33,033 bases of DNA, from positions 1-33,033 of IMG/VR virus record IMGVR_UViG_3300050343_000228; one strand, given 5' to 3'. Below, one piece after another: positions 2,089 to 31,153 of this stretch; the stretch's first letter is position 1, and every line of letters begins with the position of its first letter. The notes below the pieces were generated by a model. That model saw nothing but the letters and a program-made list of their open reading frames with translations. It was not told the origin of the DNA and did not search any database. The DNA comes from a virus. A program made the translations under genes and the position numbers.

Positions 2089-2242
2089 TGCTATGTAGCG
2101 TTAGCACATCCGTCCTAGATGACCCCGAATATTTGTCCCCCGCTCAAATGTCACAGCTTGAGGATGAGAGTATCAGGATTACTTGCAGGATCTAGAGATA
2201 GACCAGCAACCAATGAGCTTTGACCGCTGGCTTGAATCATGA
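2085..2242 (+). CDS. Small early protein of unknown function, frameshifted
   Basis: From the ATG at 2085 the frame runs 36 codons (MMLCSVSTSVLDDPEYLSPA…) and stops at 2195. Another frame then continues smoothly from about 2176 as DYLQDLEIDQQPMSFDRWLES to a TGA at 2240-2242. The two halves have the same acidic composition, and one extra base near TATCAGGATT (2171-2180) would join them into about 52 residues. Either the gene is interrupted by a sequencing indel, or the protein ends at residue 36. No family is recognised. Confidence 0.5.
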
Positions 2243-2297
2243 GCCAGCACCTACCCCCCACCTATCTAGCTGGTTTTAAAAATCGGAGAACACACTA

Positions 2298-2459
2298 ATG
2301 AAAGCCTACCGAATTGATTACACAGAAAACACCGATAATGGATGGCCGTGCCAATACACAATTCAGTTGAAAGACGAGTCACTGTTAGACGCAATCACTT
2401 GCTTTGATAGAGATCACCCACTTGCTTGGAATGTACACATTACTGAGGTGGCCCAATGA
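2298..2459 (+). CDS. Hypothetical 53-residue early protein
   Basis: The protein starts MKAYRIDYTENTDNGWPCQY and ends NVHITEVAQ. A CGGAG ribosome site lies about 10 bases upstream of the ATG at 2298, and the stop overlaps the next gene's ATG (ATGA). Alternating hydrophobic residues suggest a small beta-rich fold. The function is unknown. Confidence 0.75.
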   Translation: MKAYRIDYTENTDNGWPCQYTIQLKDESLLDAITCFDRDHPLAWNVHITEVAQ

Positions 2460-2764
2460 GAGGAGATGCAGGCACAGACCCAGCCGACACGCTGAGATTC
2501 TTTAAGCAGGAGCGCGTACACCTGAGAAACAGAGCGGCATGGGCGGCGAGACAGTGGCGCAAGCACAAGTTAAGTAGCGCAAGGGCTAAGGAGTCATACG
2601 TTAAAGACTTCTATAACACCGAGGCGCATATACAAGAGACCTATTACAAGGCATGGGCAACAGCGGCATCAGGTATCTGGCACAGCATCCGCAGAACAGA
2701 GACGGAGATGCAATACACCCAGCGTAAAGAGGACACGGTAAACAAACTGAGGGCGATGGCGTGA
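2456..2764 (+). CDS. Hypothetical basic helical early protein
   Basis: This 102-residue protein is rich in Arg, Lys, Ala and Trp, and appears almost entirely helical (AAWAARQWRKHKLSSARAKE, then ETYYKAWATAASGIWHSI). Composition suggests nucleic-acid or protein binding, but no motif identifies it. It overlaps both neighbours by 4 bases, so it belongs to the coupled early operon. Confidence 0.7.
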   Translation: MRGDAGTDPADTLRFFKQERVHLRNRAAWAARQWRKHKLSSARAKESYVKDFYNTEAHIQETYYKAWATAASGIWHSIRRTETEMQYTQRKEDTVNKLRAMA

Positions 2765-2985
2765 ACACTAACAAGTATCTAGTGGCGGGCATTGTCCGCC
2801 CATCCCTTTATGAATCACAGAAGATGCCACGCATTTGGATTCAGTGCGGCATCGGAGGCCCAGTGTTTTACACACAAGATCGTGCAGTAGAGAGAGCCAA
2901 CGAGATTAACAAGACAACGGACGATCACCATATCCGCAACGCCCAAGTGATTGAGCTAATGCGAGATGACTATTCGCCCTATTGA
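2761..2985 (+). CDS. Hypothetical 74-residue early protein
   Basis: The start is GTG (GTGA overlap with the preceding stop) and the protein ends RDDYSPY. A beta-rich first half (KYLVAGIVRPSLY…RIWIQCGI) is followed by a helix (DRAVERANEINK). The arrangement resembles small host-interaction proteins of phages, but no family is recognised. It is the last gene before a hairpin-bearing gap. Confidence 0.7.
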   Translation: MNTNKYLVAGIVRPSLYESQKMPRIWIQCGIGGPVFYTQDRAVERANEINKTTDDHHIRNAQVIELMRDDYSPY

Positions 2986-2988
2986 ATT

Positions 2989-3030
2989 TCCACAGTCGTG
3001 GAGATGGTGGGTAACCGGCCTTCTGGTTAC
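2989..3030 (+). other. Two tandem hairpins between early genes
   Basis: TCCAC (2989-2993) pairs with GTGGA (2998-3002) around the loop AGTC. Immediately after, GTAACC (3011-3016) pairs with GGTTAC (3025-3030), extendable by G·T and G-C to an 8-bp stem with a 4-base loop. No T-run follows, so an intrinsic terminator is unlikely. They sit in the leader of the ParB-like gene and could be an RNA-processing or translational control element. Confidence 0.4.
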
Positions 3031-3110
3031 ACCTAAGCCGCCAGGAAATGGAGATGTAGGCAATGAGCCAACACATTACCCGATCCGTTAGGCTAACAGG
3101 AGAAGTAAAC

Positions 3111-4007
3111 ATGTTGTCATTTAAAGCAGAGACTATCACCCCAAAGCAGGCCAGTGATTTACTAGAGAGATCAGCGATCACTTTTAAAAATCGCAACGTC
3201 ACCCCTTCATTTGTGAAGCGTTACATTCAAGATATGAAGTCAGGCAATTGGCATGCTGATACAGGTGAGACCTTAAAGATTGACATCAAAGGCAGAGTAA
3301 TTGATGGACAGCACAGGTTACAGGCTGTTGTGCAGGCAGACATAGACCAGAGGATGTGGGTTTGTCGAGGCATTGAGACTGAGATGTTTCAGTACATTGA
3401 CCAAGGCAAGACCCGTGACCTTAAAGATATTATGACTGTCGAGGAATGGCCTGACCCTAGAATCCTGCACGTCACAGGTAAGATGCTGTGGCGCTACGAG
3501 AAAACTCTAGAGCGAACAGGCAAGGGCGCACCTTATGCCCACGCAGGTTCATTCAATGAGTCGGATGGTGCTATCTATGATTGGTTGCAGAACGTGCGGC
3601 CAGGATTGCGCTCCGTCTGGGAGTCATACAAAGGTGTAGTCCTCAAGGCTTACAAAGGATCTGATCGTGCCATACCTGAGTCACTGTTGTTATATGCACT
3701 GTATCAATGGCATCAAAATAACTCTGACTTAACTCTCGACATCTTCACCTACCTAGGTGAGCCAATGAATCAAGCGTCACCACATGATGCTTGTGGATGG
3801 GCATTAAAGTACTGCCAGAAACTGCGGCAGGCCCAGAAAGAAACGGGAGTTGGAGGTACAACAGGTCGCCACGCTGATGCTAAAGAATCAATGCTCACTG
3901 CACTGAATCTTATGTGGGACATCATGAACGGAAAGGAGTCTATTAGATCATGGACTTCATTCAAACGTAGAGTAGCAGACGACGGTGCTTTTGCTGTCAC
4001 TGGCTGA
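3111..4007 (+). CDS. ParB/sulfiredoxin-like domain protein
   Basis: The motif VIDGQHRLQAVV is the conserved core of the ParB/Srx-like fold (the G-x-H-R nucleotide-binding loop). It follows ITPKQASDLLER and NRNVTPSFVKRYIQDMKSG and is followed by FQYIDQGKTRDLKDIM, the typical order in phage and plasmid ParB-like proteins. The open frame begins at 3063, but the ATG at 3111 has a strong AGGAG ribosome site 7 bases upstream, so I start there (about 298 residues). Family members act as CTPases, nucleases or kinase-like regulators; here a DNA-transaction or transcription-control role is inferred. No helix-turn-helix is obvious, and no ParA partner is present, so plasmid-style partition is unlikely. 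Confidence 0.75.
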   Translation: MLSFKAETITPKQASDLLERSAITFKNRNVTPSFVKRYIQDMKSGNWHADTGETLKIDIKGRVIDGQHRLQAVVQADIDQRMWVCRGIETEMFQYIDQGKTRDLKDIMTVEEWPDPRILHVTGKMLWRYEKTLERTGKGAPYAHAGSFNESDGAIYDWLQNVRPGLRSVWESYKGVVLKAYKGSDRAIPESLLLYALYQWHQNNSDLTLDIFTYLGEPMNQASPHDACGWALKYCQKLRQAQKETGVGGTTGRHADAKESMLTALNLMWDIMNGKESIRSWTSFKRRVADDGAFAVTG

Positions 4008-4149
4008 TACCCTACCACCGCTCGCCTTGTTGTTCGCTCTCCGTGTAACAGTAAGGTGCTACTTGGTTCGCTGGCCCCAAAGAGCAAAATGCCAGCACTA
4101 CTCATTAAAGATGTATAAAGATGCGTAACAGCTTGCAACATACAGTTAA

Positions 4150-4184
4150 GGCCTGTTAGTATAACTCTAACGGGCCATTTTTTT
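4150..4184 (+). terminator. Intrinsic terminator after the ParB-like gene
   Basis: GGCCTGTTAG (4150-4159) pairs with CTAACGGGCC (4167-4176) with one G·T pair and a 7-base loop, followed by A and seven Ts (4178-4184). This is a textbook Rho-independent terminator for + strand transcription. It implies a new promoter, or regulated read-through, for the replication genes that start at 4206. Confidence 0.85.
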
Positions 4185-4205
4185 GCCCATAGTTAGGACG
4201 ATAGG

Positions 4206-4874
4206 ATGAATGCAAAAGCAAATATAGATATACCGCCCGAGATTATTGACAGGCTTAGGGCTGTAGGTGAGACATCTGCCACTGCGCTGTGGGATTGCCA
4301 CGGCAACTGGATCATTAAGCACAAAGCGTTAGAGAAGATTGCCGCCAACGCTGGCATTACCTACTCGGACTGCACCGTGTACCCGCCGCAACAGGGGCAG
4401 GAGTACTTTGCCGTCAGTCTTATAGGTCACATGGGTGATCGCAGTGAGTGGAGTATTGGAGAGGCATCCCCCAAAAACTCAAAGAATAATTATTACTACG
4501 CTATGGCAGAGAAGCGAGCCAAGGACAGGGTGATTCTCAAACTGCTGGGGTTACATGCCTACATCTACAGCGAAGAAGAAGCTGATGAGTTTAAGGAGGC
4601 GGCTCCAGTTAATGATGACTTCTTGCTTGAGCATTCTAATGCGGTGCGGGAGAACATTGAAGAGGTGTATCGAATCAAAGAGTGCATCGCTAACAACGAT
4701 ATACATGGTGCGGCTGGTTACTACGCGGACATGAGCCGCGAAGTCCAGGTTGCATTGTGGAAAGCCCCCAGCAAGGGCGGGGTATGGACAACCGAGGAAC
4801 GCAAGCTGATGTCTGCTGACGGCGAGCTTGCCAAAGCTATTGTTAGCATTAAAAAAGGAGAGGGCAATGAGTAA
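4206..4874 (+). CDS. Phage DNA-transaction protein, possible single-strand annealing/recombination type
   Basis: This 222-residue protein has a beta-rich first half (residues about 45-95) and then the helix NNYYYAMAEKRAKDRVILKLLGL followed by EEEADEF. The pattern of an aromatic-Ala-x-Ala-E-K-R-A-x-D-R helix after a G-x-x-S-P-K loop occurs in phage proteins placed next to SSB genes and resembles annealing proteins of the Rad52/Sak or Erf kind. That assignment is inference. The C-terminal third (HGAAGYYADMSREVQVALW) is helical. Overlap with the SSB-like gene (8 bases) supports a joint recombination or replication role. The start follows a terminator by about 20 bases and has AGGA upstream. Confidence 0.55.
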   Translation: MNAKANIDIPPEIIDRLRAVGETSATALWDCHGNWIIKHKALEKIAANAGITYSDCTVYPPQQGQEYFAVSLIGHMGDRSEWSIGEASPKNSKNNYYYAMAEKRAKDRVILKLLGLHAYIYSEEEADEFKEAAPVNDDFLLEHSNAVRENIEEVYRIKECIANNDIHGAAGYYADMSREVQVALWKAPSKGGVWTTEERKLMSADGELAKAIVSIKKGEGNE

Positions 4875-5208
4875 CGGTTACAACAACGAGAAGCAAGAGA
4901 GGCGGGAGCTACCTGCTACTGGGTTTAGATTCTATCCAGCTAAGCCTGAGTTTATTACTGCAAACGTGGTCATCTTGGTTGATGACATGATCAAGTGGTT
5001 GCAAAACGAGAAGGCATCTGGCTTGAAGAAAGATAATCAAGGCAAAGATGTTATCCGACTGTCGATGCGGGAGACCAAAGAGGGAGCTAAGACTTCTCAC
5101 TGGCTGGCCTATGATGACTATGAGCCAAAGGAAGGTGGTCAACAGCCGCGCAGTAACGTCACCGCCATGCCTCAATCTGTTGCAGGCTTAGACGACATTC
5201 CGTTTTAG
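4867..5208 (+). CDS. SSB-like protein with acidic DDIPF tail
   Basis: The protein ends DDIPF, the C-terminal peptide by which bacterial and phage single-stranded-DNA-binding proteins recruit partners, preceded by a flexible Gln/Pro/Ser linker. The body (about 70 residues, FRFYPAKPEFITANVVILVDD … VIRLSMRETKEG … HWLAYDDYEP) is beta-rich and basic but shorter than a canonical OB fold. The start at 4867 is chosen because AAAAAAGGAGAGGGCA lies directly upstream; the frame itself is open further back. The neighbour upstream overlaps. The role inferred is coating ssDNA during replication or recombination. Confidence 0.6.
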   Translation: MSNGYNNEKQERRELPATGFRFYPAKPEFITANVVILVDDMIKWLQNEKASGLKKDNQGKDVIRLSMRETKEGAKTSHWLAYDDYEPKEGGQQPRSNVTAMPQSVAGLDDIPF

Positions 5209-13434: not shown

Positions 13435-14446
13435 CTAATCAAATAAATCAAACAGGCCGGTAACAGCGTCAATGCCGCCACCAATCGCACCCATTAATCC
13501 GCTACCAGATGAGCCATCAGCGCCTTGAGTGCCACCCAGGTTACCCAGCATGGAGTTATACAGGCTACCTGTTAGCTCATTAGCACTGTGCTGTGCGTTG
13601 ATGTTGGCGTTAGTACCACCCAACAGCAGCTGTGCAAGGTAGTCATTACCTGTTAGCTGGCCCTGTCTGAGCCATATCAGCATTGCCGTAGCCTAGCTTC
13701 ATAGCCTCTATCTGCTGTTGCATTGGCATGTACTGAGCCTGCATTCCCTGATTACCCATCTGACCAAACTGTCCAGCCATCTGACCAAACATTCCCATCT
13801 CTGAGTTAGCCATCTCCCTAGCTTTGAATGCCGCCTCATTAGACGCCTGCGCTCTTGCACGGGCCATAGCCGCATCTTCTGCTGTACCACCATACTGACT
13901 ACCCATCACGCCACCACGCCCCATAGCGTACTCTTGAGCGTTACTCTGTGCGGCCATCTGATCTAGCTGTGGCCGCTGAGTGTTCATGATGCTGGCATAG
14001 ATATCATTCTGCTGTTGGCCTACTCCATTCCCAGCCTGACCCATAGCGTAGTTAGCCGCGTTATAAGCATTGTTAGAGAAGGCCATGAGCATTAGGGTCT
14101 TGGGCATTAGTTCATCCCCATATGTTACCTGCATCTGACCGTTCTGGCCATAGTGGCACACTGCCGTTACCTAGTCCAGTGCTTACGCCATAACCTTGAA
14201 ACTGAGAGTCACCTTGAAGGTCTGCACCAAGACCTGACAGGTAGTCCTGAGTTGCCTGACCCATCTGCTTTGTTTCTTTGGCATTGTCTAAAGCGCCGTA
14301 ATAGTGGCCGCAGTGCCACCAGTGTTAAGCGCGCTATTCCCATGAGTACCTCCCACCAATGCTTCCAAGCAATCCACCGCTGGCGGTGGCGCCACTGGCC
14401 GTAGGTTGAACGTAACTGATGTGAAGTACCTTACTCTGAGAGCCAC
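13435..14446 (-). CDS. Gln/Ala/Gly/Met-rich virion protein, several frameshifts
   Basis: Pieces in different frames join into one protein of about 335 residues: a Gly-rich start (ASGGLLGSIGG), then LDNAKETKQMGQATQDYLSG and GDSQFQGYGVSTGL, then EYAMGRGGVMGSQYGGTAED, the Met/Gln-rich region FGQMAGQFGQMGNQGMQAQ, and finally QLTGNDYLAQLLLGG to the end GLFDLFD. Clear slips are near 13660, 14160, 14300 and 14390. Glycine-rich, Met/Gln-rich proteins of this type follow tail genes in marine podoviruses and are thought to be virion (internal or tail) components; that role is inferred. The GTG at 14446 with AAGGAG upstream is the best start, but the first 20 codons are uncertain. Confidence 0.55.
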
Positions 14447-14457
14447 TTTGTTTCTCC

Positions 14458-16243
14458 TTATGCTGAAATTCGGCCAATAGCAGAGTTAATTGTAATTTCT
14501 TGGAGGGCAAAGTAATCACCCTTAATCTCTATGTCTAAGCCCACACGGAAGAACTCACCAGAGCCTGACGTATGAACCTTATAGTTAAAGTAATAGGAGC
14601 CACCTAGTCCGTACTCTCCCTCGGCATACTCATCCTTAGCGTACTGAGAACCCGGGAGAGTCAGAGTCAATGCGGAAGTCATAGGTGCCATTCAACCCTG
14701 TCACCAAATCCCCATTAGCACGGCATCTCCCGGCAAGCTATTAGAGTAGATAGTGTAGATAACAGACTTAGGCATGATTACCTGCTGGAATGGGCCTGGC
14801 CAATAGCCATGCTTTCATAACTCATTGTGTATGGTCTCATCTTCTACATATCTTTGTACTTCATAAGGCCACGGTTAGGTTTACCTGCTAAATAGACAAT
14901 GTCTCTGTCGCCTCTCTTAGCCTCAAAGCTGTCGTTCCAATAGCAGTCCGTCCACCGTGTAACCTTTAACCCACCTGTCTTAGAGGGCATGTTGGTTTGC
15001 ATGGCATAAGCAAGCTCAAGGTTTCTAAACAAGACAACAGCCATAGACTTTGATGGCATGTACTCCATCTTGATAGCTGACCTACCTTGTATCTACTGCA
15101 AGCTCCTGCTGTGATAGCTTGCTGTATTGTCTTCTGATATTCAAGGACGGCTCTCAGTAATAGGGTTAGATTTCTCTTGTACTACCCTACCAATAGAACG
15201 TACCCCAGAGTCATCAACAAACAAGAACATCAGTGCCGATATTGCATATAGCATCACGGCGTACCAATCCCACATTAGATATAGCATCCTGTAGTTGTAT
15301 GCCATTCTCTCCCGCTGGATCTTGAGTTAGCGTTGGCATAGATCAATATAGAGTTACGGCCAAAGACCAGTAAGAATCCATTGTGTGCATGGATATTAAC
15401 TATGGTGTCATTACCAGTAGGCCAATACTCACTGACATCAATAACACCACCATCATTCTGTGGGTTAAAGGGAGGGTCATACGGGCCGTTAGTTATGTCG
15501 CCGTTAGTGTCATACTCAGGAGGGATTCGTGGGTCGTACCATGAATTCTCGTTAAGCAGGCTAGAGTAGTAGATCTTCTGATAGTTACCATCTACCCCTG
15601 ACACCCACAGCCTGCCGTATGCAGAGATAGCAATGTCACCATTAATATCCTGTGAGGGATTGCCGCTAGCATCTGTACCAAGGATTGCCTTGCCGCCTAC
15701 AACATCCCATGTCTTGTCATTCAGCACCATGAATGGGCTGTTCTTGGCAAATAGGAAGGTCTCATCCTTGAACATGGCTAGCTCTGCTGTCTGAACTGCC
15801 CATTAACTCCAGCAGGTACAGAGTGGTATCTCTAGGGCATCATCCTCTAGTATGGCAACCCCATAGTGGCACAGTTCTCATCTAGCTCCTCTACTTTCTT
15901 CATGAGAGCGCCTGTACTCGGTTTAAGCCTCTCTGCGTATCCAGCCTTGAAGCTTAGGTCCAAGATTGCCATATCTTGTATACACTGACAGGCCCCTCAT
16001 TAGTGCCGTGTATAGTCAACCTCTGTGACAGCACCACCAATCTTTGTGAACTCAATATTGTCTTACCTGCCAGCGTCCTATAGGTAGCAAATGCTTCCCT
16101 GCCACACAGCCTGCCTATCTGATCTATCACCACATTGTCAGCAAGCAGGGCAAACTCAGGGTCACCATTAATAGGAGATAGCTCAGTGTTTAAGCCTTGG
16201 AATCCCGGCGCTCGTAGACCTACCTGATTAACTTTTGAGCCAT
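14458..16243 (-). CDS. Tail stabilisation/tubular protein B-like protein, many frameshifts
   Basis: The ATG at 16243 directly follows the previous stop (TAAATG). Its own frame stops quickly, but a second frame continues LRAPGFQGLNTELSPINGDP and LADNVVIDQIGRL, the typical start of phage stabilisation proteins. The best preserved part (15275-15775) has FLFAKNSPFMVLNDKTWDVV, GDIAISAYGRLWVSGVDGN and IHAHNGFLLVFGRNSILIYA, which match the repeated blades (AYGRLW, FLLVFGRN) of T7 gp12 or P22 gp10-type proteins. Downstream pieces include VEYMPSKSMAVVLFRNLEL-like segments and end QEITINSAIGRISA. At least eight slips are needed (for example near 14660, 14700, 14780, 15090, 15150, 15200, 15310, 15800-16060). 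The merged length is about 595 residues. Function: distal short-tail structure (inferred). Confidence 0.6.
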
Positions 16244-16801
16244 TTATACTGCCTCCCAGACCTGTTCAAAGCTGGCGTAATTAGCGTCAAGGGCTATGGC
16301 ATCAGATAGATACTGATTAGCCATGTTGAATATCTCCTGCACTGATTGACCACCTACCTCACCACGCTCTCTAGCCGCTAGAGCATAGGCGTAATACATG
16401 ACTGCATTGTACGGCAGAACTATAGGGTCATCATCATAGTCAAGAGGTGTAACCCCTGCATGGCCTATCACTGTATAGCGCAGGGTTTCATCAGCAGGAG
16501 GAGGCATAAACTGTATAGAGACAGCCGCTGAGTTAGGGGTTGCTACTACAGCAAACTCACTGGCATCACCCTTCTTGATCTGACATCATCCTGTGTCGGA
16601 CAAGGTGTTCCTGACTGCACTGATTTAAGCACCAGCCATTCTATTAACTACACCAGAGATACGAGCGCCATGATCTGTGCCATCAAGAACATAAGAGTCT
16701 TTATTAGGCTCTGTAATAATCTCCCATTCACGCTGTGTAGCAGTCCATTGATGTGCCGCCCATACATACTTATAGGAATCATTGACCAGAGCCTCAACCA
16801 T
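16244..16801 (-). CDS. Head-tail adaptor/tubular protein A-like protein, frameshifted
   Basis: Starting at the ATG at 16801 (4 bases after the previous stop), the protein reads MVEALVNDSYKYVWAAHQWT, then WEIITEPNKDSYVLDGTDHG. The frame slips near 16640 and again near 16580, after which KKGDASEFAVVATPNSAAVS and VLPYNAVMYYAYALAARERG continue to the TAA at 16244-16246. The merged size is about 185 residues. The LPYNAVMYYAYALAARERGE segment with ADA-rich C-terminal helices is characteristic of T7 gp11-like head-tail or tail tubular adaptors. The pairing with the following B-like gene supports this. Confidence 0.6.
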
Positions 16802-16805
16802 ATTC

Positions 16806-19709
16806 TCAACTACGTTCTTCGCCACTGCTAGTAGACGAGTTATTGCCACCGCCTGATTGAGTAGCATTAGGGTTGTAAGGAGTTGGGCTAGATCCGTTAG
16901 GCTTGTGAGGGCTGTCTGCTGGAATACATGCCCCATTACCAAATGACCACCCAGTAGGACAGCCGCTATTAGGCTTTACTCCCGTCTTGTAGTCTTGGTC
17001 ATCCGTACCTTCCGTCCATGCACCGTTAACCCAACCAGAGTTTTTTGGCGGGGCAGGAGTAGGTTCGGGTGGCGGCTCAACAGGTGTTGGCTCAGGGGTT
17101 CCAGATATAGGAGTGTGCTGGGAGTCAATCCAATCCTGCTCCTTTTTAGTAATTGGCTCTGGTTCTGGTTCTGGTGCAGGCTCAGAGGTATTGTTGTTAG
17201 TGTTTGTGTTGTTGTTAGTGTTTGTGTTGTTGTTGTTGTTAGTGGCTGAGTTGTTGTTACTGTTGTTGTTGGAGCTAGTACTCAACGTTTCAACAACCTG
17301 CTCTGGCGTTGCTCCAGAATCCAAAGCCTTAATAACTTCTTGAACAGTCGCGCTTGCGGCATTAGCCATAGCAAGAATTTGCTGGGCAGTAAAGTTTGAA
17401 CTGGTAGCGGTAGATGATGACTGGCTCCCTCCGTTATTTCCCGTGTCCCCTGTGTTAGCGTTTTCTGAGTTAGGGTTACTTGAATTGTCTTTAGTCGTAT
17501 CTTTGGTCTCTGGGGGTTTCTCTGGATCTGGTGGGTCCGTGAAAGGATCATTATCAATAGGGGTATTGGGCGCGATGTCTGCGATCGTCCGAACTGTGGA
17601 GTCCTTGGTAGTATCAGGCGCTCCCAAGACGCCACCAACGTTTACGCTGTTGTTCGTAATCCCGTAGATTCCATCAGACGTATCGACATTGGTCTCAAGC
17701 CTCCAGCCATGTTCACTGCTGTAGTTAACACCGATCCCTTGGCGCTGTAGGTATCGTTCTAGGCCCTCTGCGCCGTATAGCAGGTCGCCTGTAACTGGGT
17801 CTGCATAGGGGGTCCTCTCGAACCGAGCCACCATCTCTGCCATCTCCCCATCATCTAGGGCTAACAGCATACCGTCTACGCCTGAGCCTCCTGCCGTAGC
17901 CTTCAGAGCAAACAAGTCATCGACGTACTGTTCACCCGTCATTGCCTCGTATGCTTCCTTAGACATGTTGAAGGGGTTCTCGATGCCTGACCCACTAGCC
18001 CCGGTCAAGGGGTTAATGCTATTCATGTAGTTGCCGATGGATGTGCTGGTGTTTCCGTTGTGGTCTACCCACTCCTTAATCTCAGGATCGAACTGAGCAA
18101 CAACTCTGCCGTTCTGGTTGTAAACTACATCAAAGCGACCATCTCCATCTCCGTCAAACATCATGCGACCATTAATCATGGTGCCTTGCTCAAGCAGAAT
18201 CTCTTGGCCGTCTACCATGTAGATGGAACCGTATTTGCTTCCGTCTACATAATGATCTATCTGATCCTGCGTGTAGACGTTACCCTCGCTGTCGAGGTAT
18301 ACCCGTGCGCCATTCTTTGTGTAGGGATTATCATCAGCGTTCGGTGAGTTTGATCCTAGATCGACAGGTGTATGGTTAGTAGTAATATTCTGTAAATCAG
18401 AGCCTGATAAGCGTCCATCACCATCAGTATCTATTTCAGACATGTTGCCTACATAGCCATAATTAGGGCCGGGATTGGTAGAGAACACTATGCCATTTAA
18501 CTCATAGAGTCCGGGGCCAACCTCTGTGCCTACTCTCTTAGCGGTAACAACAATCTCTTGTAGAGACTCATCATTGTTTCTGCCTATATCTGACAGATAT
18601 CCTGTTAGCGCAGTGGTGCCTCCAGCCATAGCCGCCGCTATTCCCGCGTCCTTCCAATCAATCTTTCCGCTTTTAACTAACTGAGTAACTAGGCTCATTC
18701 CCCCAGCCTGCAAAGCAGAGTTTAATACTGCACCACCGCCATCAAATGCGGCATTGCCTAGCGCGTTAACCTTGTCTGTCAGTGAGTTGAAGATCCCTGT
18801 ATTTCCTAGCTTGTTTGTGAGAGCCGATCCCCCATAGGACGTAGCCGCACTCATCAGTGCATCTTCTAGACTTAAACCTTGACCATTCATTAATGCAGTA
18901 GCCTGAGAGATAATTGCACTAGACGCGGCCTTGGCTAAACCGGCGCTCATAAATCCCGACATAGAGCTAGCCAATAATGGCCCTGCATAAACAGACATTA
19001 AGACACCAGCACCAATCTTGACGTAATCACCTACGCCCATGTGGTCATCTACTTTGTACGTCTTGGTGTAGTTAGATCCGTTGAATCGGAAGACGTCACC
19101 ATCATCATTAACAAAGGTGTCTTCAATCCCCCATGCGCCCATGATGGTGCTAACTACTTGACTCTCATAATCCTTAACTCTCTGAGCTTCTTCTAGCAAG
19201 ATCTCATTAAAGACGTCTGAGTTCGGCCCCCTACCAATCTCTCTATGAGCATAAAGCTCATCGTGTTTATTAAGCGTTAGTTGACCAGAGGCATACATCT
19301 CATCAAGCGCACCTACAAAGCCTATGTAATCATCAGCAGATAGGTGAGGATTGGCTTCTTGAAAATACCCCATGCCTTGATCTGCATTCCAAGCATCCCT
19401 GATTTCTTGCTCTGTACGCATAACTATGTTTTCGCCAGTAAAGCCACCAGAGTCATCACCTAGCTCGGAAGAGTCTCTGTAGACATATACCCGCTCGCCA
19501 TTGCCGTTGTAGTAATGACCGTTAGCGTCTTGCTCTAAGCCTGCTAAAGCCTGCTCTATCTGATGGATTCTGAATTCGTTTGTGCTAGACGCAGTGCTTC
19601 TTCCCTTCTCCTCAAACCAATCCAATACGTCCTGATATGTTTCACCAGTAAACTGATTGGCCGCGATCTGATTCTCGCGCAGTAGCTGATTTTCTAAAGG
19701 GTTAGACAC
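16806..19709 (-). CDS. Large low-complexity virion protein with calcium-loop-like motifs
   Basis: This intact frame encodes 967 residues. It has a helical N-terminus, a hydrophobic Gly/Ala-rich region (about 235-375; LMSVYAGPLLASSMSGFMSA), two EF-hand-like loops (DTDGDGRLSGSDL and DGDGDGRFDVV) and a long disordered part (about 700-870) rich in Pro/Glu/Asp and pure Asn/Thr runs (NNNSNNNSATNNNNN). Near the C-terminus a two-cysteine module, GCPTGWSFGNGACIPA, closes the protein. The start is a GTG that overlaps the preceding gene by 8 bases. No enzymatic domain is recognised. Between tail-tip genes it is likely a tail or internal component; calcium binding is inferred from motif spacing (D-x-D-G-D-G-R). 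Confidence 0.65.
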   Translation of the reverse strand: MSNPLENQLLRENQIAANQFTGETYQDVLDWFEEKGRSTASSTNEFRIHQIEQALAGLEQDANGHYYNGNGERVYVYRDSSELGDDSGGFTGENIVMRTEQEIRDAWNADQGMGYFQEANPHLSADDYIGFVGALDEMYASGQLTLNKHDELYAHREIGRGPNSDVFNEILLEEAQRVKDYESQVVSTIMGAWGIEDTFVNDDGDVFRFNGSNYTKTYKVDDHMGVGDYVKIGAGVLMSVYAGPLLASSMSGFMSAGLAKAASSAIISQATALMNGQGLSLEDALMSAATSYGGSALTNKLGNTGIFNSLTDKVNALGNAAFDGGGAVLNSALQAGGMSLVTQLVKSGKIDWKDAGIAAAMAGGTTALTGYLSDIGRNNDESLQEIVVTAKRVGTEVGPGLYELNGIVFSTNPGPNYGYVGNMSEIDTDGDGRLSGSDLQNITTNHTPVDLGSNSPNADDNPYTKNGARVYLDSEGNVYTQDQIDHYVDGSKYGSIYMVDGQEILLEQGTMINGRMMFDGDGDGRFDVVYNQNGRVVAQFDPEIKEWVDHNGNTSTSIGNYMNSINPLTGASGSGIENPFNMSKEAYEAMTGEQYVDDLFALKATAGGSGVDGMLLALDDGEMAEMVARFERTPYADPVTGDLLYGAEGLERYLQRQGIGVNYSSEHGWRLETNVDTSDGIYGITNNSVNVGGVLGAPDTTKDSTVRTIADIAPNTPIDNDPFTDPPDPEKPPETKDTTKDNSSNPNSENANTGDTGNNGGSQSSSTATSSNFTAQQILAMANAASATVQEVIKALDSGATPEQVVETLSTSSNNNSNNNSATNNNNNTNTNNNTNTNNNTSEPAPEPEPEPITKKEQDWIDSQHTPISGTPEPTPVEPPPEPTPAPPKNSGWVNGAWTEGTDDQDYKTGVKPNSGCPTGWSFGNGACIPADSPHKPNGSSPTPYNPNATQSGGGNNSSTSSGEERS

Positions 19710-20557
19710 GTCCCATATTCTCCATCAGCTTAGCGTATATGAGGTCTCTGTTCTTGCCCTGGGTGAACATACCGCCGCTATCAAACAGGTCACTAAACTG
19801 TGTCTGCACGGTTTGGTTATCCATTGAAGCCCAGTCTAGAGGGCTGTTGTAGGTGTACTGACCCAGCAAGCTATCCCAGTTATCAGCGCCGCCTCTGTTG
19901 AGAACGTCCATCCAGCTAGAGTTTTGACGAGATAACATTCCATTACCCGGAAGGACTGTTTCATTACCGGGATTAACTGGAGAGCCACCGCTCTCGTTGT
20001 AGTTTTGATTGGCAACAGCCCCTGCCTGCTCCCATGTAAGACCATACTTGTTAGCCAGATCTAGCTGGTCAAAGTACTGCTTGGTCATTACATCACTAGA
20101 TCTCGAAAGGCCTCGGTCTAAGCTATTGGCATCTCTAATGGCACTAGACCTGTTTTTTACCTGATCATCTCCAGCAAAAGCATTCTTGAACCAGCCAGCA
20201 ATGCTGTCATCCCTATAATCACCATAGTTTGACTGCTTGCCCCCATGCGTACCAAGAAAGGCGTTGTAATCATCGTCTCTAACGTAGTTGTAAGTGTTAA
20301 ACCTGTCGCCATGAAAGGTAGAGACTTGTAATAATATCCCTAGATTTTTCCTCTGATGGATTTGGCGTGTTTGCCGCTTCTACAGCGGCTCGCTTTCTAT
20401 CTCTCTCTTCCTGCTCTAGCTGAGCGACTGTCTTAGTAGAAGTGGGAGCTGGCTTATAGGCTGACGTATAGTCTGGGGTGTAAGCCGGTCTACTATGTGG
20501 AGAGACAGGAGTCCCCTTAGAGGGATCGCCATAAAGGGCCGCAATAATACTATTCAT
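19702..20557 (-). CDS. Virion protein of unknown function, one frameshift
   Basis: The ATG at 20557 gives MNSIIAALYGDPSKGTPVSP, a Pro/Ser/Tyr-rich stretch and a coiled helix (LEQEERDRKRAAVEAAN), then slips near 20320. The second frame continues FHGDRFNTYNYVRDDDYNAF … GWFKNAFAGDDQVKNRSSAI and runs into the 128-residue frame (19702-20088), ending LMENMGRV. Merged length is about 285 residues. It has many Asn/Asp/Gly/Tyr residues but no recognised domain. It sits directly before the 967-residue gene and overlaps its GTG, suggesting the two virion proteins are made together. Confidence 0.6.
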
Positions 20558-24047: not shown

Positions 24048-24943
24048 TTAACCAGCAACGTAGATAACTACACCTGAGTCTTCACGGTAAACATCTTCAC
24101 CGTAGAGCGTATCAGCAGTCATCAAGTCTGCAAGGTACTCTTGCTTGTATTGTGTCTGTGTTCGCACAGCCATCTGCTCAGCAATTACCAGAGCATCTGT
24201 GTGGAACAACAAGCAAGGCTTCTCGCCAGAGCTGTTAGCAGGCAGGTTAGTAGAGACAAATACGTCAACGCCGTATAGCTCACCAATCTTGCCGTTAACA
24301 ACACCACGACCATTAACAAAGTCACTAGATACATAGCGATCAATGCCCATGATGTGGTTACGAGCGGCTGGTGGGATAACTAACTTGCGGTTATCCATAG
24401 GTACATCGTTGTCATCCAAGATCTGAATAGCATCTCGGAAGGCTTGGTCGCTAAAGTCACCAGCAGATCCAGTCAACAGCAGGGACAACAAGCCACTGTC
24501 TCTGTTGCGTGACCTACGCTAGTGAAGTTAGCAATAGCAGTAGCAATCAGGTCAGAGTCAACCTTGCTTGCTAATGCGTAACCAGCGTCCTGCGTGTAGA
24601 ACTTACGCATAGAAGCCAACGCCTGTACTGAGGTAATGTCCTCAATCAGTCGTGAGTACTCCCAATGCTGATCTACAACAACCGTCTTGTTACCAGAAGT
24701 GTCAGCAACCAGTGTTACCTGAGTCTCTGTCAGCTTTTGGTTAGCCGATCCGCGCAGTGGCATAGGGATATTGATGGTATCTCCCTTCTTGCCAGCCATC
24801 TTCAGCGACTTAACGAGTGGCTTCATTACGAGAGACTTCTCGTACTCAGCCAAGATCTCATCACTCCATAACTTAGGAATGAATGTTGCGTGGTTCGTGT
24901 TGTTTACGCTTGAACCAGTAGCGTATGTTCCATCTAAAGCCAT
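24048..24943 (-). CDS. Major capsid protein, one frameshift
   Basis: The N-terminal part starts MALDGTYATGSSVNNTNHAT with AGGAG upstream and has ILAEYEKSLVMKPLVKSLKM, INIPMPLRGSANQKLTE and the conserved HWEYSRLIEDITSVQALASM. After KVDSDLIATAIANFTS the frame slips at about 24490, and the next frame carries GDFSDQAFRDAIQILDDNDV, VIPPAARNHIMGIDRY and a C-terminal strand. The merged length is about 298 residues. These motifs (IDQHWEYSRLIEDI, FRDAIQILDDNDVP) are those of phage HK97-fold major capsid proteins next to a scaffold. The frameshift in an essential gene points to a sequence error. Confidence 0.82.
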
Positions 24944-24964
24944 TATGACTCTCCTTTAAGGATG

Positions 24965-25785
24965 CTAATCTCGCACTCGCCCTTCTGCGTAAGCCGCCAT
25001 AATCTCCGGTTGGAGATCTTCATAGCGTTGAGGGTTGGTTTGCATTAGTTGTCGAATGTCGGCACGGCGGTAAACCCGCTTTGACGATGCCGCGTCTGCA
25101 TTACCACGAGGGCCACCAACTGCGGCGGCTCTCACGGCTTTCTTTTGAGCAGTCTTCTCTGCCGCTTTCGCGGTGGCAACTGTCTTATTCAACTGTTTAT
25201 AAGTAGCAATAAGATCATCAGCTTCATCAACATCACCTGATTGATCTGCATATTGGTAGCGGCGGAGGCGAGAAGGACTAGATTTAATCCATTGTCCAAA
25301 CTCATCACTGCTAGTACAACCTCTTTCAGATCAGGGTGACGTTGTTGCAGAGTAGCCAAGCCCTGTGCATAGGCCAGTTTCTGGGCCATATCTTGGGCTT
25401 GCTTCAAGGCAGGGTGGTTATCAATCCTAGAATCTACTGCTTTCTGTGGATCAACAAAGAAATCTGCCTCTTCTACTGGCTCTGGTTCCGGTTGCGCTGG
25501 AACAGACTGAGTACGGGCCATAGCTTCAAAGGTTTGTCGCATATTGCCTAGCTCATTTCCTTGTTGGCCAATATGTCGATCACGCTCTTCGCAGTATTGC
25601 GACCATCTCTTCATGTGACTTATCGGAAACTTGCTATCTGGGGTGTCTTCAGTAGGCTCTTCCTCTACAACAGAAGGTTCCTCTTCAATAACTTGAACAG
25701 GGGTGTCCTCCTCAATGTTGCCAAGGGTTTCGCCGTCGTGAAGTTCCATTTCTGGCTGTTGCTCGTCGTCAAGTAGTGTTGCCAT
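24965..25785 (-). CDS. Scaffold (capsid assembly) protein, one frameshift
   Basis: The N-terminus is acidic and Gln/Pro/Glu-rich (EEDTPVQVIEEEPSVVEEEP), followed by HMKRWSQYCEERDRHIGQQG and DPQKAVDSRIDNHPALKQAQ. Near 25315 the frame changes; the continuation SDEFGQWIKSSPSRLRRYQY … VDEADDLIATYKQL joins the separately open C-terminal frame (24965-25192), which has VYRRADIRQLMQTNPQRYED and ends AYAEGRVRD, a typical scaffold C-terminus. The merged protein has about 273 residues with coiled coil. Placed right before the capsid gene, it organises capsid assembly and leaves the head afterwards (family knowledge). Confidence 0.78.
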
Positions 25786-25877
25786 GCTTAGCTCCGTTCC
25801 TTTAAAGGGGTGTCGGATAGTTGAACAGGGGGGTATCCATTAGGTTCCCCTGCGTTTGCCCCCGGATGAGGCAGTTC

Positions 25878-26110
25878 TTATTGGAAGGTGCGATCTTCAT
25901 CATCATCTTCCGCAATATTCTTAATGTAGTTTTCAAAGTTCAGCATCATTCTAAGAACAGCAAGCCTGCCCTTTTGAAAGTGCAAGTCTTCAAGGGTCTG
26001 ACAGGAATCAAGGTTGCACATCTGCATCTGATCTTCCCATTCATCTACCAAGTTCTTCCAACCCGGCATGGAGAAAAGATCACGCGCATCCTCTTCTTCT
26101 CTCTCAGAAT
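25878..26110 (-). CDS. Small acidic virion or assembly protein
   Basis: The frame open from about 26110 reads DSEREEEDARDLFSMPGWKN, LVDEWEDQMQMCNLDSCQTL, HFQKGRLAVLRMMLNFENYI and ends EDDDEDRTFQ. Only the internal ATG (26069, MPGWKN) is available as a start, but there is no ribosome site before it and the upstream part is clearly coding, so an indel near 26110 is likely. Small proteins with LF-x-x-PGWK-x-L and a Gly-x-L-x-x-L-x-x-[IM] helix lie beside scaffold genes in podoviruses. The role is unknown; head assembly is inferred. Confidence 0.55.
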
Positions 26111-26280
26111 CAAGCGGCCTCCTCTGCCAGTGAAGCTATAAACTTCTCTAGCTCTTTGAGCTTCTTCTCTGTAGCCAGCATCTTCTGGTCAGCCTTGTCT
26201 AGCCTCACCTTCATCTCTGTAAACAATCGCTCTGCATTAGAGCGGAGTTCATCAAATGTATTCTGATCTACAGGCTTCAT
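26110..26280 (-). CDS. Small coiled-coil protein (56 residues)
   Basis: MKPVDQNTFDELRSNAERLF starts a single coiled-coil helix (TEMKVRLDKADQKMLATEKK) ending SLAEEAA. The ATG at 26280 has a strong TTAGGAGGAGAGG site and overlaps the previous stop (ATGA). It may form one reading unit with the following small gene if the stop at 26110 is an error. A structural helper role in head assembly is possible. Confidence 0.6.
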   Translation of the reverse strand: MKPVDQNTFDELRSNAERLFTEMKVRLDKADQKMLATEKKLKELEKFIASLAEEAA

Positions 26281-27095
26281 CCTCTCCTCCTAAAGCACTG
26301 GAAGATGACTTGGTGGGTCTTGCTCCGGTCAGGTTGTTGGTCGTTGACTCCAAAACCCGCCCAACTAGAATGGCCTTGAAAATGCTGTCTCGCAGAAGTG
26401 AATTCAATAACGTTCGTTGCGTGAAAAGAAAACACGGCGTGTGGTGGCTGGACTTCCCAAGCCCTGCCGCCCGAAACCTCCAACTCAAACCAAATTATAT
26501 CGCCGGGGATAAACTCATACTCTTCTGGCGGGAACCACTTATATAAGTCCTTGAATACTTCTGCGCCATGCCCCCCAAAGCTACTGTTAGACCATTTGCT
26601 CTCATTAGGGTTAGCCACCATCGTATGAACTTCTTCGGTGTAAGATATAAACGCGATTTTCATGTTGTACTTTATACTCAGGTGGTCGTTCCCGTCACCA
26701 CCAGACTCGCCCTCGGCACTGGGGGGCTGGATAATCTTGACCCTGACATCATCAGCGTTGTCTGCTTTAGAGCTAGCACTGAGAGACCTGACAAACTCAA
26801 CATCAATCACCCAATACTGGGCCGCGCCTTGACTCTCATCATGAGCACCACCAAGATTAAACGTCCATGTGCCGCGCTCTACAGATGGGGCAATGGCATC
26901 AATCTCTTCTTCTAGCTCAACAATTTCAGACTGGAGTCTTTTGATATCTTCCTGCGTAGCAAGCTCTGCACCTAAGCTGTCAGTGACAGAGTTGACCACC
27001 CATCGGGCTTTGTCCTTGTGAAAGATATATTCCACGCCATTCTCTAGCGTGACCTTATCGCCCTCTTTAGCGTCTTTAGGAAATGAATAGCTCAT
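26277..27095 (-). CDS. Appendage/tail-fibre protein of unknown fold
   Basis: The protein of 272 residues starts MSYSFPKDAKEGDKVTLENG, then VEYIFHKDKARWVVNSVTDS, a fibre-head motif also seen with coiled linkers (DIKRLQSEIVELEEEIDAIA) that suggest a trimer. A beta-rich domain follows (YWVIDVEFVRSLSASS, DIIWFELEVSGGRAWEVQPP, FSFHATNVIEFTSA) that could be lectin-like. TGATG overlap with the collagen-like gene indicates coupling. The last 40 residues are Gln/Arg-rich. Likely a virion decoration or receptor-binding protein (inference). Confidence 0.6.
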   Translation of the reverse strand: MSYSFPKDAKEGDKVTLENGVEYIFHKDKARWVVNSVTDSLGAELATQEDIKRLQSEIVELEEEIDAIAPSVERGTWTFNLGGAHDESQGAAQYWVIDVEFVRSLSASSKADNADDVRVKIIQPPSAEGESGGDGNDHLSIKYNMKIAFISYTEEVHTMVANPNESKWSNSSFGGHGAEVFKDLYKWFPPEEYEFIPGDIIWFELEVSGGRAWEVQPPHAVFSFHATNVIEFTSARQHFQGHSSWAGFGVNDQQPDRSKTHQVIFQCFRRRG

Positions 27096-29162
27096 CAGCA
27101 GATTCCTGAGATTGTTATGTAGTAAGGCCCAGACCCATTAGCGAAGTTGCCTCCATTCAGGGCAGTCTTGGAAGAGACATAGCAAAGAGCGTGGTCAGGA
27201 TGAAAATCAATCCTGCTGATAGTGCCTGTTACTTTCATCTTCCACCCACCACCTGATACTTCCCAGATAGTGAAGGGTACGTTATCGCTATAGCGAACGT
27301 CTTCACGGGGCGTATTGGTTCCCCAAGCAATGCCATCTCTATCTGTAGTGGCAAGCTCTAGGTGCTGATTACCCGTGCTTTCCTTTACCCACCACTGGAA
27401 ATACCCATTCGGCAAGTTAACGATACTGCACATGAACTTAAGACCGGGTGGCCTAGATGCAGAGACACCACCACTGTTGCACTAGACTTAGAATCTACAT
27501 AGCCTTTAGTAGCCGCGTGATGTGACTCAACAGGCTCCTTTAGGTTATAAACGCCAAGCTGACCACCAACGCTGTGTATCAGTGTCTTGTTCTTGCCTTC
27601 TGAGGTGTGTTGCCTAATCTTCCAATCAGTGTCATCAGGTAGCTGGTTAGCGCCTGAGTTATCTAGCTTTGGATGAAAGCCCTTGGTCTACATACTCTTG
27701 GCTCGCGCCTGCCTGATTCTGCGGGTAGACATAAACCTCTTCAGCCTCATCTACCTCAAAGTTGTTGGTGCCTGACAGGTACTCAACCGTCAGCGCGTTA
27801 TAGTCTCCGCTGACCACCTTGTAACGAGTAATCTCACCAGCATTCTTAGAGCCAACCGCCTCGACAAACTCAACAATGTCATCAGGGTTCGCAGGCTTAG
27901 TGGCCTGTCCGTTTGAGTCAAATGGCGCAAAGCTAATGTAGGTAACGTCTACCGCATTAGGGCTGTTGACATATAGCTCACCATTTCTAGTGGCTACATT
28001 GATCTCTGTACCCTTGACCGTGTATCGGGCAACTGCGCCCTTTAGTGATAGAAAGCTCTTCTATCTTGGCAACAATCTTTGCTTGGTCATCAAGGCTCTC
28101 TTGAATCTGTGCAATGATGGCCTGCTGTGTAGCCTCACCAGCACCAACCCTGCCCTCTAATGTTGTAGGGGGAGCAACAGGTATCCAAGCATCTGAGTCT
28201 TCATGCCAAACATAAAGTTGCATGGTGTCTTGGGAGTTATCAAACCACAGCGAGCCGTTACCAACCCCATCCTCTACCGGATCAGGAGCTTCATTTTTAA
28301 TGATGACAACGCCATCAGGTACCTCAGCAACAAACAGCACCCACTCAAATACTGTGGCGTCATCTTCTGTAGGCGTCCAGATATAAAGGTCTAAGCCTTC
28401 TGGATCTGGGTTGTCATAATCAAAGCTAGGGTCTTCAACCTGATACCACTGGTCATCTACCTCTAAATCATTAGGCTCGCCGTCCTCTGCGTAGGGGTAT
28501 TCTGTCGGCTCATCTTCAGCATAGATAGGTAGCCTGTCTTCTGGAAGATCTGGAGCTTCTGGCTCTTCCAGCAACCCCTCAATTGCGTTCCAAAGAAATC
28601 GGTTAACCTCTAGCTGGTTGTTTAACTCAGGCACATCACTAGCAGACTTAAAGCGTCCCTTAGAATCACGGAACACCATACTGCTGTTAGTAGCAATTAA
28701 GTCAGTAGTAGCTGGCGACCACTCACCTTGGTTACTGCCATCTGGCTCTCTGTAAACTAACCACTTGCCATCATGGGTGTTGGTTGGGCGCTTCACATAC
28801 TTTGATAGGTCAACCATCCCACCACCACTACCGCCACCTGCGGCTTTGTAGTGAACTTCTGTGGGATTACCCTGCTTATCAAGGATGGGCATTTCAATGA
28901 CATAGCTATTGCCATCTGTCATGTGCATGATTATGGAGTCATCAATATCCTGCTCAATACGAGCAACGCCAACACCGTCAGTGCCGTCATCACCCTTAAC
29001 TCCCTTATCACCTTTCTTACCCTGATTACCCTGTGGGCCTACTGGCCCTGCTGGGCCTTTATCACCACGCGGCCCTTGTATACCGGGGCCTCCGGGTTCT
29101 CCAGTAGCGCCCTTCTCACCGGCTGGGCCTGTGATTTTCTTGTGCTGACGCTCTTGCTTCTC
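27095..29162 (-). CDS. Collagen-like appendage/tail-fibre protein, frameshifted and lacking a start codon
   Basis: An 18-triplet Gly-X-Y collagen-like repeat (about 29129-28968; GPAGEKGATGEPGGPG, … GKKGDKGVKGDDG) follows VEKQERQHKKIT. Next come VARIEQDIDDSIIMHMTDGN, a Gly-rich hinge, and acidic repeats with DLPEDRLPIYAEDEPTEYPY and VEDGVGNGSLWFDNSQDTMQ (W-F/Y repeats typical of fibres). Slips near 28045, 27672 and 27473 join the remaining pieces (LKGAVARYTVKGTEINVATR; FHPKLDNSGANQLPDDTDWK; the ATKGYVDSKS motif; FMCSIVNLPNGYFQWWVKES). The merged length is about 690 residues. In this frame no ATG, GTG or TTG occurs between the upstream stop (about 29198) and the repeats, so either an indel is present at 29163-29165 or the portal frame continues into it. 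Confidence 0.68.
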
Positions 29163-31153
29163 AACCTGCCATTTGACGCTCTTCTTCTTGCATGAGCATT
29201 TGAGCTAGCTGAATCTTCTTCTCAAAGTCGACATCTATCTTGCCGTCCTTGTCCATATCTGAGTACTTCATGGCCGCTTCTTTCGGCATCATGTCTGACT
29301 CAACAGCGTACTTAGCCGCCCGTGCTTTAGCCTCTTCAGCCTGCGCCATGAGTACAGCAGTCTGTGCTTGCTGTAATTGCATCTGAGCTTCTGCTTGTTG
29401 TTGTTGCATTTGTTGGGCTTGAGGGTTGGGCTGACTAGCTTGATCTACAACTTCCAACAATTTCTCTTTGCTGGTCACATTCATGTGTTCAATGATGGCC
29501 TTAACCATAGCTCCATGAATAGGAGACTGTGGTGGCACCACCTGTAAGATCTGAGCTAACTGCTGAACCTCATACTCCCTAGCAATAACACCCAAACTAG
29601 AGATAACAGAGAAGTGATAATCCTTTGATGGGTACTTCTCAGGATCAAACTGCATGTAACGCCAAGCAGTCTTCTTGATTAGTGGCTTGAAAAAGGATTC
29701 TTGGAAATTAACTAGGGTACTTCTCTGACGCTTCATAACCGCGCCCATGCTCATTGAGATACCGGCGGCAGTTGTGTCGCTTGATGGGCCTTTCGCCATC
29801 TCAGCGGCGTCCTGTGAGCCTGTAGCCTGCTGAACCATCATCTGTAGGTTCTGAGCTTGGTTGAAACTGATCTGATCTACCTGCCCAAACTTAAAGGGCA
29901 TGATTGACTCTTGTGGTGAGCCGTTAGTTAGGATCATCTTGCCCGGACGTACCTCGAATTTGTCCCCTCTTGGGATTCGGGTAGCGTCTACTGCCATCAT
30001 TGGGTGGGTAGTCAGTGCAAGTGCATCAATCCTAGCCCGCATTTCGGCGTCTAATGCCTTCTGAGACATGTAACCCTTTTCACAGACACCACGACCCCAG
30101 AACCGGCTGGGTACTACGTCCCAAGGGAAGGCCGCAATAGGCCGATCTTGGCACATATAGGGATTTGACTGTGCTTTGAGGATTTCACCGTTAGCTATAA
30201 CAACTACAGCCTCTGTATATTTGCCATCTTCTAGCAATTCAGAGTCAACGCCCTCTTCCTTTAGCAAGTCAGTAGGCACTAACCCGTAATACCGCTTAAC
30301 TCTTACCTTTCTAACAGGCTGATGGGGTCAATTCAGAGTCAGCATCAACATCTGGGTCGCTAGGGTCTTCACCAATGTCTATATCACGGTAAACACCAGA
30401 CTCTTGTAGCTGTTCAACAGTGTGAATAGAGACAAACTCTTCAATACACACCCCCATAGCACTGGTTACACAGGTAGCATTGGGGTCAATCAGGAAGTTT
30501 TTGGGCTGAATAGGGGTTAGCTTGACCATTGGGCGGTCTTTTTTCTGTACACCGTACTCAACAAGGCTAGCCTCTTGGGGCATACCCTCTAATGGCTGGG
30601 TGCTAGGGATATATTCTTTAGAATCTTCAATAGATAGCTCACCAATGCCCGTACCATACACAGCGGCGTTGATTAAAATCTCTCCAATAGCCGCTCGGTA
30701 GTTAGCTCGCTCAATATCTTTGTGTAATTGGTCCCGAACCATGATGGATTCTTGGGGTGTTGGCTGATTTTGTGGCCTTGAGCCGGTGGTTGACCACCAC
30801 CCATCCCCTGCATGGCCTCGGGGGGCATCATCTGAGGAGGTTGACCTTGAGGAGGTGGGGGTGGTGTCTTTGCTGAGTCTTCAATGTCAAACATAAATGC
30901 CTGACTGAATGAAGCAGTCTCAATTTCTGCTACAGCACTCTCAACTGCCTGTTGTAAGGCAGGAGCAATGATGCGGCTACGCTCTGATTGTCTTGTTTTG
31001 TCTTCGTCAGCCCAAATACCACGCCAGAGCCGGTAGTATTCGTCATGCTTTTGCTCGTAGTTAGACTCGTAGTGGTCACGCCACTCCTGAGTTAAAGTTT
31101 CTAACCACTCAGTTAAGCCAGCCTTCTATACCAATATGCTCTAATTCAGCCAT
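29161..31153 (-). CDS. Portal protein, three frameshifts
   Basis: From the ATG at 31153 (right after the TerL stop) the frames join at about 31115, 30776 and 30331. The merged protein of about 663 residues has the head-tail connector order: LTEWLETLTQEWRDHYESNY, YYRLWRGIWADEDKTRQSER, IIAPALQQAVESAVAEIETA, MFDIED, a Pro/Gly/Met linker (PPPPPQGQPPQMMPPEAMQG), QLHKDIERANYRAAIGEILI, AAVYGTGIGEL, KLTPIQPKNFLIDPNATCV, then RRYYGLVPTDLL-like and NPYMCQDRPIAAFPWDVVPS. A typical Gln/Ala-rich coiled C-terminus (QQMQQQQAEAQMQLQQAQTA) ends EEERQMAG. Portal rings sit at the capsid vertex and pass DNA; genes TerL-portal-scaffold-capsid are collinear here. Confidence 0.82.

Follow-up and report, generated by a model that had tools for sequence, protein, structure and literature searches.

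What is made from an open frame of 967 codons on the minus strand of a viral contig, in which a Gly/Ala-rich region, aspartate loops, asparagine runs and a cysteine pair are strung together, and where in the phage does its product act? The original prediction for this gene, made within the window (the whole stretch of 33,033 nucleotides that was analysed), was of a calcium-responsive tail or ejection protein. The frame and each of the features then listed are present in the minus-strand translation, while the plus-strand frame over 16806-19709 has many stops. The features, with two neighbouring frames, are as follows.

16806..19709, minus strand: open frame of 967 codons, GTG start at 19709 and stop at 16806
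19050..19709, minus strand: N-terminal domain, residues 1-220, mixed helix and short strands in a model of residues 1-247
19056..19118, minus strand: signature hairpin, residues 198-218 (TFVNDDGDVFRFNGSNYTKTY), from the N-domain alignment
18585..19034, minus strand: Gly/Ala/Ser-rich helical stretch, residues 226-375, with two similar halves by eye and low model confidence
18534..18563, minus strand: LQEIVVTAKR, residues 383-392; the relative L136 has LEEIKVTAQH at the same place
18396..18431, minus strand: loop 1 (DTDGDGRLSGSD, residues 427-438), of EF-hand type; L135, L136, L137/L139 and L140 have kept it
18120..18155, minus strand: loop 2, residues 519-530, DGDGDGRFDVVY, DxDGDGR, also in L001 and L137
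17010..17612, minus strand: low-complexity Asn/Thr/Ser/Pro/Glu tract, residues 700-900, from the translation; the corresponding part is variable in relatives
17184..17276, minus strand: Asn/Thr tract, residues 812-842, an AAC-rich coding repeat with an 18-bp array at 17191-17234
16926..16961, minus strand: Cys unit CPTGWSFGNGAC, residues 917-928; by eye, L137, L138, L142 and L147 have units like it
19702..20088, minus strand: open frame overlapping the start of the gene, with GMLSRQ and GMFTQG in its translation
16247..16810, minus strand: remnant of a gp11-like gene (tail-tube A) in a different frame, short of about 30 codons at its N-terminal end, going by its match to relatives' gp11

Alignment with the N-termini of L079, L083 and L084 backs the GTG start, and comparison with L001 (277 codons, 82% identity) shows the frame to be under purifying selection (dN 0.107, dS 0.415). 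The order of parts is N-terminal domain, Gly/Ala helical stretch, variable middle and C-tail. The model of residues 1-247 has a pLDDT of 80 and a pTM of 0.72, and the N-terminal domain gave no significant match in the PDB. Seven columns of its alignment are invariant in 28 of 28 rows (E82, G194, G204, D205, N210, G211 and Y214, window numbering), all of them within the signature hairpin except E82 and G194. The N/T/P/E-rich tract that had been described is present at about residues 700-900, and within it are the Asn runs (residues 814-840, window 17190-17270); AAC accounts for 18 of the 19 Asn codons of the Asn tract. C917 and C928 are the only cysteines; by eye, the pattern C...G.C turns up again in the middles of L142, L147 and L138, which are otherwise unlike.

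That C...C unit had been called terminal; the two cysteines are there, but the C-terminus of the frame is probably an artefact, and 967 is, going by the sequence, probably a truncated count. The gp11 match in the window starts at residue 29-35 of the gp11 of relatives, at 16807-16810, where the 967-codon frame stops, and the conserved C-tail was found in no frame of 16300-17000. Because that tail and about 30 gp11 codons are absent, and several structural genes are frame-broken, the contig has probably suffered a deletion at the junction of the frame and the gp11 remnant. In the relative L137, the order is N-domain, both loops, a like Cys unit, a Gly-rich stretch, a GMLAG motif, the tail PAWGELFAPPAFRKHTPYQ and then gp11. 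A sharing of domain order by relatives had been proposed as a check, and L137 does have the N-domain, both loops and a like Cys unit; in the family, the middle is swapped. Within window positions 24051-31119, the portal match is in three segments of two frames, with scaffold and capsid in two frames each; portal, scaffold and capsid are whole in G001-G003, a sign of indel errors in the contig. The nozzle match, set against the whole gene of G003, is in five segments. Long-read viral assemblies have been described as carrying many indels, fewer after polishing, in one account (PMC6487183), and the window is presumably such an assembly. At 13477-16226, the nozzle-like and following internal-protein-like genes, intact in G002/G003, are also split over several frames.

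On the evidence of sequence comparison, the protein belongs to a family without a name, here met in IMG/VR contigs only. The IMG/VR scans gave overlapping yields: 14 loci with the window protein, 60 with that of L007, nine with the nozzle of L001, 40 with the window TerL, 53 with the gp11 of L137, three with G003 proteins and one with G002 proteins. The place before gp11 is taken by three sequence groups: one of window type (with L001, L079, L135-L140 and others), one of L007 type and one of L148-L174 type, this last without a match to the N-domain profile at 1e-3. Two results speak against a universal gene. Of the 16 records of TerL or nozzle relatives, three were matched by the window protein, though partial members are present in two of the other 13, L080 and L081. 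No recognisable member precedes the distant gp11 of 15 loci (L175, L176, L178-L185 and L187-L191; L177 is cut off). The counts out of 50 below refer to a set of 50 genes, the remainder of 74 complete-looking ones after removal of near-copies, from which L175-L185 and L187-L191 (16 of the 53 gp11-fetched loci) were left out, their upstream ORF being unrelated-looking, short or cut off. The complete non-redundant genes range from 343 to 1700 codons. In L176, the 1317-codon ORF upstream of the distant gp11-like gene (1015-4968) has a start that we take to resemble a contractile sheath protein; PEVD repeats and a GMLG ending follow.

Profile searches gave the window protein no Pfam or NCBIfam match above cut-off, two chance-like NCBIfam matches (0.025 and 0.029) being far below; at E<=0.1, Pfam and PHROG yielded sub-cut-off EF-hand matches and one PHROG of unknown function (0.091). 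Among the relatives scanned, the only Pfam cut-off passed was for collagen repeats in L008 (97-3525, residues 647-703, a triple-helix repeat in mid-protein, Pfam E 9.4e-8). For PHROG matches no curated cut-offs exist, and that of L006 to tape-measure phrog_2335 (2.9e-7, residues 321-921, including Glu/Lys-rich repeats) perhaps reflects composition; the window protein has no PHROG match to a tape-measure profile. The query for the PDB-sequence search was the N-domain alignment only. In tblastn against annotated phages, the window protein and its counterparts from L007 and L137 had zero matches, as did the L001 gp11 and the L137 nozzle; the window TerL and the capsid of L007 do match named phages, at under 60% identity. 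A scan of bacterial and archaeal genomes with a single short N-domain pattern matched 45 stretches, 0 of which were confirmed. The gene is undescribed in the open-licence papers searched. Its carriers would be uncultured, probably short-tailed, aquatic phages, and a marine origin of the contigs is presumed.

The tail context that had been suggested is borne out by position, since copies in relatives adjoin gp11-like and nozzle-like genes, with the proviso that these labels denote PHROG matches to tail or structural families together with position, the best-scoring nozzle family being named 'amidase'. The gene ends at a gp11-like ORF in 70 loci (66 contigs by name), most of which were fetched with the gene itself, and with the gp11 start taken as the first ATG there is a 4-base overlap in 69 of the 70 (L108, L114, L115, L123, L125 and the window are left out of this count). 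In the independent fetches, a member-like tail is on the adjoining ORF in all nine nozzle-fetched loci, and 37 of the 53 gp11-fetched loci were taken as candidates. When the window is set against G001/G002, identity is 97-98% for TerL and 92-93% for capsid but 32-33% for the 967-codon gene and 32-41% for gp11, so the whole tail module differs and not this gene alone. Elsewhere in the window, the ORF at 899-1756, by eye like what we assume to be an ArdC-type antirestriction protein, has a 75% identical relative in G002 and a shorter, 82% identical one in G001.

Position, the conserved C-tail and the coupling to gp11 together argue for a tail-linked virion protein; virion status is thus inferred from where the gene lies. 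The reading we prefer, with a little less than even confidence, is of such a protein whose ends serve for docking and whose exchangeable arm makes contact with the envelope of the host. At the other pole, the product might be a non-virion assembly or lysis factor whose coupling to gp11 translation is accidental. In several L007-type loci, a 132-residue gene, hydrophobic by eye, is just upstream (L007:7360-7758 and its like) and is perhaps a holin. Such a small upstream gene, and the indirect route by which virion status is reached, are what a lysis or assembly role has in its favour, but the docking-like conserved ends, the size of the protein and its place within the tail module make that role very improbable.

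The variable part of the gene is its middle. In L001, L077, L078, L079, L083 and L084, gp11 is 100% identical (rounded) and the C-tails are 90-100% alike, but the 260 residues before the C-tail are 2-37% alike between three variants (L001/L077, L078 and L079/L083/L084), as against 73-100% within variants. Likewise, L007 and L025 are 100% identical in gp11 and C-tail, and their frames run to 838 and 1398 codons respectively. L142 has a tail like that of L137 by eye, a gp11 that is 81% identical and no N-domain match. Divergence between otherwise near-identical phages, by which marine island genes are recognised, is therefore present here. The Asn runs had been flagged as a slippage risk, and as a family trait this has proved apt: tandem repeat arrays are present in 43 of the 50 genes (14,923 of 164,160 bp) whereas the 49 stretches that come next (up to 2.3 kb each, 103,405 bp in all) have none, and L079 and L083, 100% identical over 808 codons, have lengths of 808 and 816, by eye through one extra VEDPIVPI unit. 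A diversity-generating retroelement was considered and dropped, the pattern being one of exchange and repeat change; of five comparisons, four gave a dN smaller than dS, dS being saturated in two, and the remaining one, L079 versus L083, has zero differences.

In marine phages, fast-changing host-contact genes are known in metaviromic islands, on one account (PMC3909814), which also describes variation in virion-module genes between near-identical phages and repeat-rich, adhesin-like parts, to which the present family is alike. In the island fibres of that account (PMC3909814) the N-terminus is kept and the C-terminus varies, whereas here the conserved C-tail is by gp11 and the middle is variable. 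An exchangeable, slippage-prone middle suggests contact with a changing host surface, and it could be that the variable middle is itself the receptor-binding part of a host-range adhesin proper, with no membrane insertion. Swapping of the middle between near-identical phages would fit this, as would the resemblance to surface-protein parts of the L008 collagen repeats, the EF-type loops, the Cys units and a run in L151 that we take to be thrombospondin-3-like. However, much of the middle is of low complexity rather than a folded binding domain, and genes that by eye are fibre-like are nearby in relatives; their presence also counts against the preferred reading, since a second host-contact protein is not required. 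A T7 gp17-like tail fibre is likewise repeat-rich and, by analogy, host-facing, but the relatives have those fibre-like genes separately, and the T7 fibre N-terminal domain was not detected by Pfam in the window protein (E<=0.1) or in nine relatives (E<=0.05). In favour of an adhesin, among those genes of marine phage islands that can be identified, the ones for host recognition are the commonest in the account cited (PMC3909814); overall, an adhesin of this kind is judged unlikely.

Does the protein enter a membrane? The 'membrane-like' region originally proposed holds as to composition, a Gly/Ala-rich stretch being present, but its hydropathy is marginal, the best 19-residue value being 1.42 in the window and 1.98 in L137, below or near the usual transmembrane cut-off. 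As a candidate membrane-interacting part it is plausible but marginal. The model of residues 1-730 has a mean pLDDT of 61 and a pTM of 0.38. Foldseek gave zero matches at E<=0.001 in the PDB for either model and in BFVD for that of residues 1-730, a missing match being no proof of a new fold. The best VIA Z values, 6.3 and 4.0, were both to unrelated chains, and the weak structural matches of residues 220-294 (LTC4 synthase, GPCRs and complex I together with soluble proteins) include none that is significant.

Ejection proteins of the T7/P22 type are large virion-module proteins with a hydrophobic helical part, encoded near the connector genes, and the window protein resembles them in each of these respects. 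As such an internal virion protein, it would be held in the capsid or connector and expelled first, its Gly/Ala helices inserting and its disordered middle crossing the periplasm. The helical stretch, the membrane proteins among the weak matches to residues 220-294 and the long disordered segments all suit this. So does the presence of three internal virion proteins in hypervariable islands of marine phages (PMC3909814, as far as that account goes). On the other hand, the gene is before gp11 rather than after the nozzle, where relatives have large genes that by eye are internal-protein-like; its middle is repeat-expanding; and no sequence match to ejection proteins of this type was found, nor a fold match by Foldseek at E<=0.001, nor a PHROG ejection-protein match in the family members scanned. 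Rapid swapping also suits an exposed part better. Ejection is accordingly a possibility that we rate as rather doubtful, ahead of the adhesin and behind a tail-linked protein with an exchangeable arm.

The calcium aspect of the original prediction has fared less well. Both DxDGDGR loops exist, but only loop 1 fits the 12-residue EF consensus, loop 2 having Tyr at position 12 and presumably being closer to the VCBS/FG-GAP type. Loop 1 is modelled as a short helix (423-426), the loop and a further helix (437-445), with mean pLDDT 92 for 421-430 and 86 for 431-440. In 20,000 shuffles, the chance of one full EF-type loop was P=0.013 and of two DxDxDG P=0.001. Pfam EF-hand cut-offs were not reached (window 12.6-14.2 bits versus 25-30; for PF00036, 14 bits in the window and 13.8 in L135 versus 25.4). 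The EF-type pattern is in eight of the 50 genes, with 0.77 expected, at differing places, and a second such loop, DAN.DG.VT.EE, is in L001, L077, L078, L080, L135 and L144. Loop 2 has been seen elsewhere only in L001 and L137 (L139 being the same contig as L137). By sequence pattern, then, EF-type loops are recurrent but optional, which makes a dedicated calcium sensor unlikely. Proteins of the EF-hand, thrombospondin type 3 and VCBS classes have aspartate loops of the same consensus types, but here the loops are isolated, optional, within swapped pieces and, for EF-hand, below the Pfam cut-offs. A switch in which binding of Ca2+ to both loops sets off ejection or some change in the tail would draw on the conservation of loop 1 in close relatives and its improbability by chance; with so few relatives having an EF-type loop, fewer still loop 2, and the motif shifting place between members, such a switch is hardly credible, and calcium responsiveness as the defining function is not upheld. 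A more modest inference is a putative role for calcium in local stabilisation of folds. Relatives that lack calcium loops and the low-complexity segment had been named as evidence against the prediction: most of the 50 do lack the loops, yet a low-entropy stretch is in 51 of 52 sequences scored (a redundant set, some partial, window included).

A short motif at the ends also speaks for the preferred reading. Of the 50 genes, 36 have GM[LF] in the opening 60 residues, where 0.51 would be expected, and 32 have it in the closing 60, where the expectation is 1.88; of the 21 distinct C-tails in an earlier set, 15 have it in the closing 60 (0.82 expected). Related tails are not independent, however, and these enrichments overstate the number of events. 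In other genes of the same loci the motif is rare at the termini, the counts for first and last 60 residues being 6/214 and 15/214, nine of the 15 being one upstream gene type: downstream genes have 4 and 4 of 110, those further upstream 0 and 1 of 83, and those immediately upstream 2 and 10 of 21, with LMGMLGLG common to nine of the ten. The 132-residue gene of L007 has LMGMLGLG near its end. Two other genes directly upstream of a member have the motif at their start: that of G002 (L138:4932-5999) opens with MGMLTQG and contains GM[LF] twice more, and that of L079 (L079:2548-3648) opens with MAGMLGG. Counting against the preferred reading, no GM[LF] was observed near the N-terminus in the group to which the window belongs, and the window protein has one GM[LF] only, internal at residue 613. 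That it is only internal would be expected with the tail missing, and the upstream ORF that overlaps the gene has two. The ends might constitute a docking code, where a tail socket takes any motif-bearing arm and arms are traded with gp11 unchanged; the traded arms, of unrelated sequence, would be helical, collagen-like, Ca2+-loop, Asn/Thr or Glu/Lys repeat. This is speculative and, on balance, improbable as it stands.

Another lead, and a lead only, is LQEIVVTAKR, which resembles what we take to be a TonB box, and in that respect the protein is presumably like TonB-dependent receptors and colicins. Strict matches were confined to this string and LEEIKVTAQH among 460,908 residues of six-frame ORFs of >=150 residues (loci up to L138), with 0 in 53 later upstream ORFs; in the non-redundant set the string is in two of 51 proteins (0.06 expected), the pattern having been written after the match was seen and the two proteins being related. 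Unlike such receptors and colicins, there is no plug or barrel, Pfam matching neither a TonB-dependent receptor plug nor a beta-barrel in the window protein or the relatives scanned, and the box-like string is in those two proteins only. That the arm of the window variant, with a TonB-box mimic, hooks the host TonB system during entry is a very long shot.

For the tail-linked protein with an exchangeable arm, the steps would be these. End peptides would dock the protein on the tail, at adaptor or nozzle, and on infection the N-terminal domain and Gly/Ala helices would touch the envelope of the host or pass into it; docking, membrane contact and the presence of the protein in virions are all conjectural. 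The low-complexity middle would act as a flexible arm, with swapping and slippage adjusting its length and surface, and aspartate loops, where present, may take up Ca2+ from the water around the phage and make local folds more rigid, with no switch involved. The combination of kept ends, a repeat-rich exchanged middle before gp11 and terminal GM[LF] was not found in the open-licence papers searched. If the reading is right, a whole uncultured phage group would have a very fast-changing gene just before that for the tail tube, offering a model for how a host-contact arm is changed via recombination and repeat slippage, and the short GM[LF] motif may serve as a tail socket.
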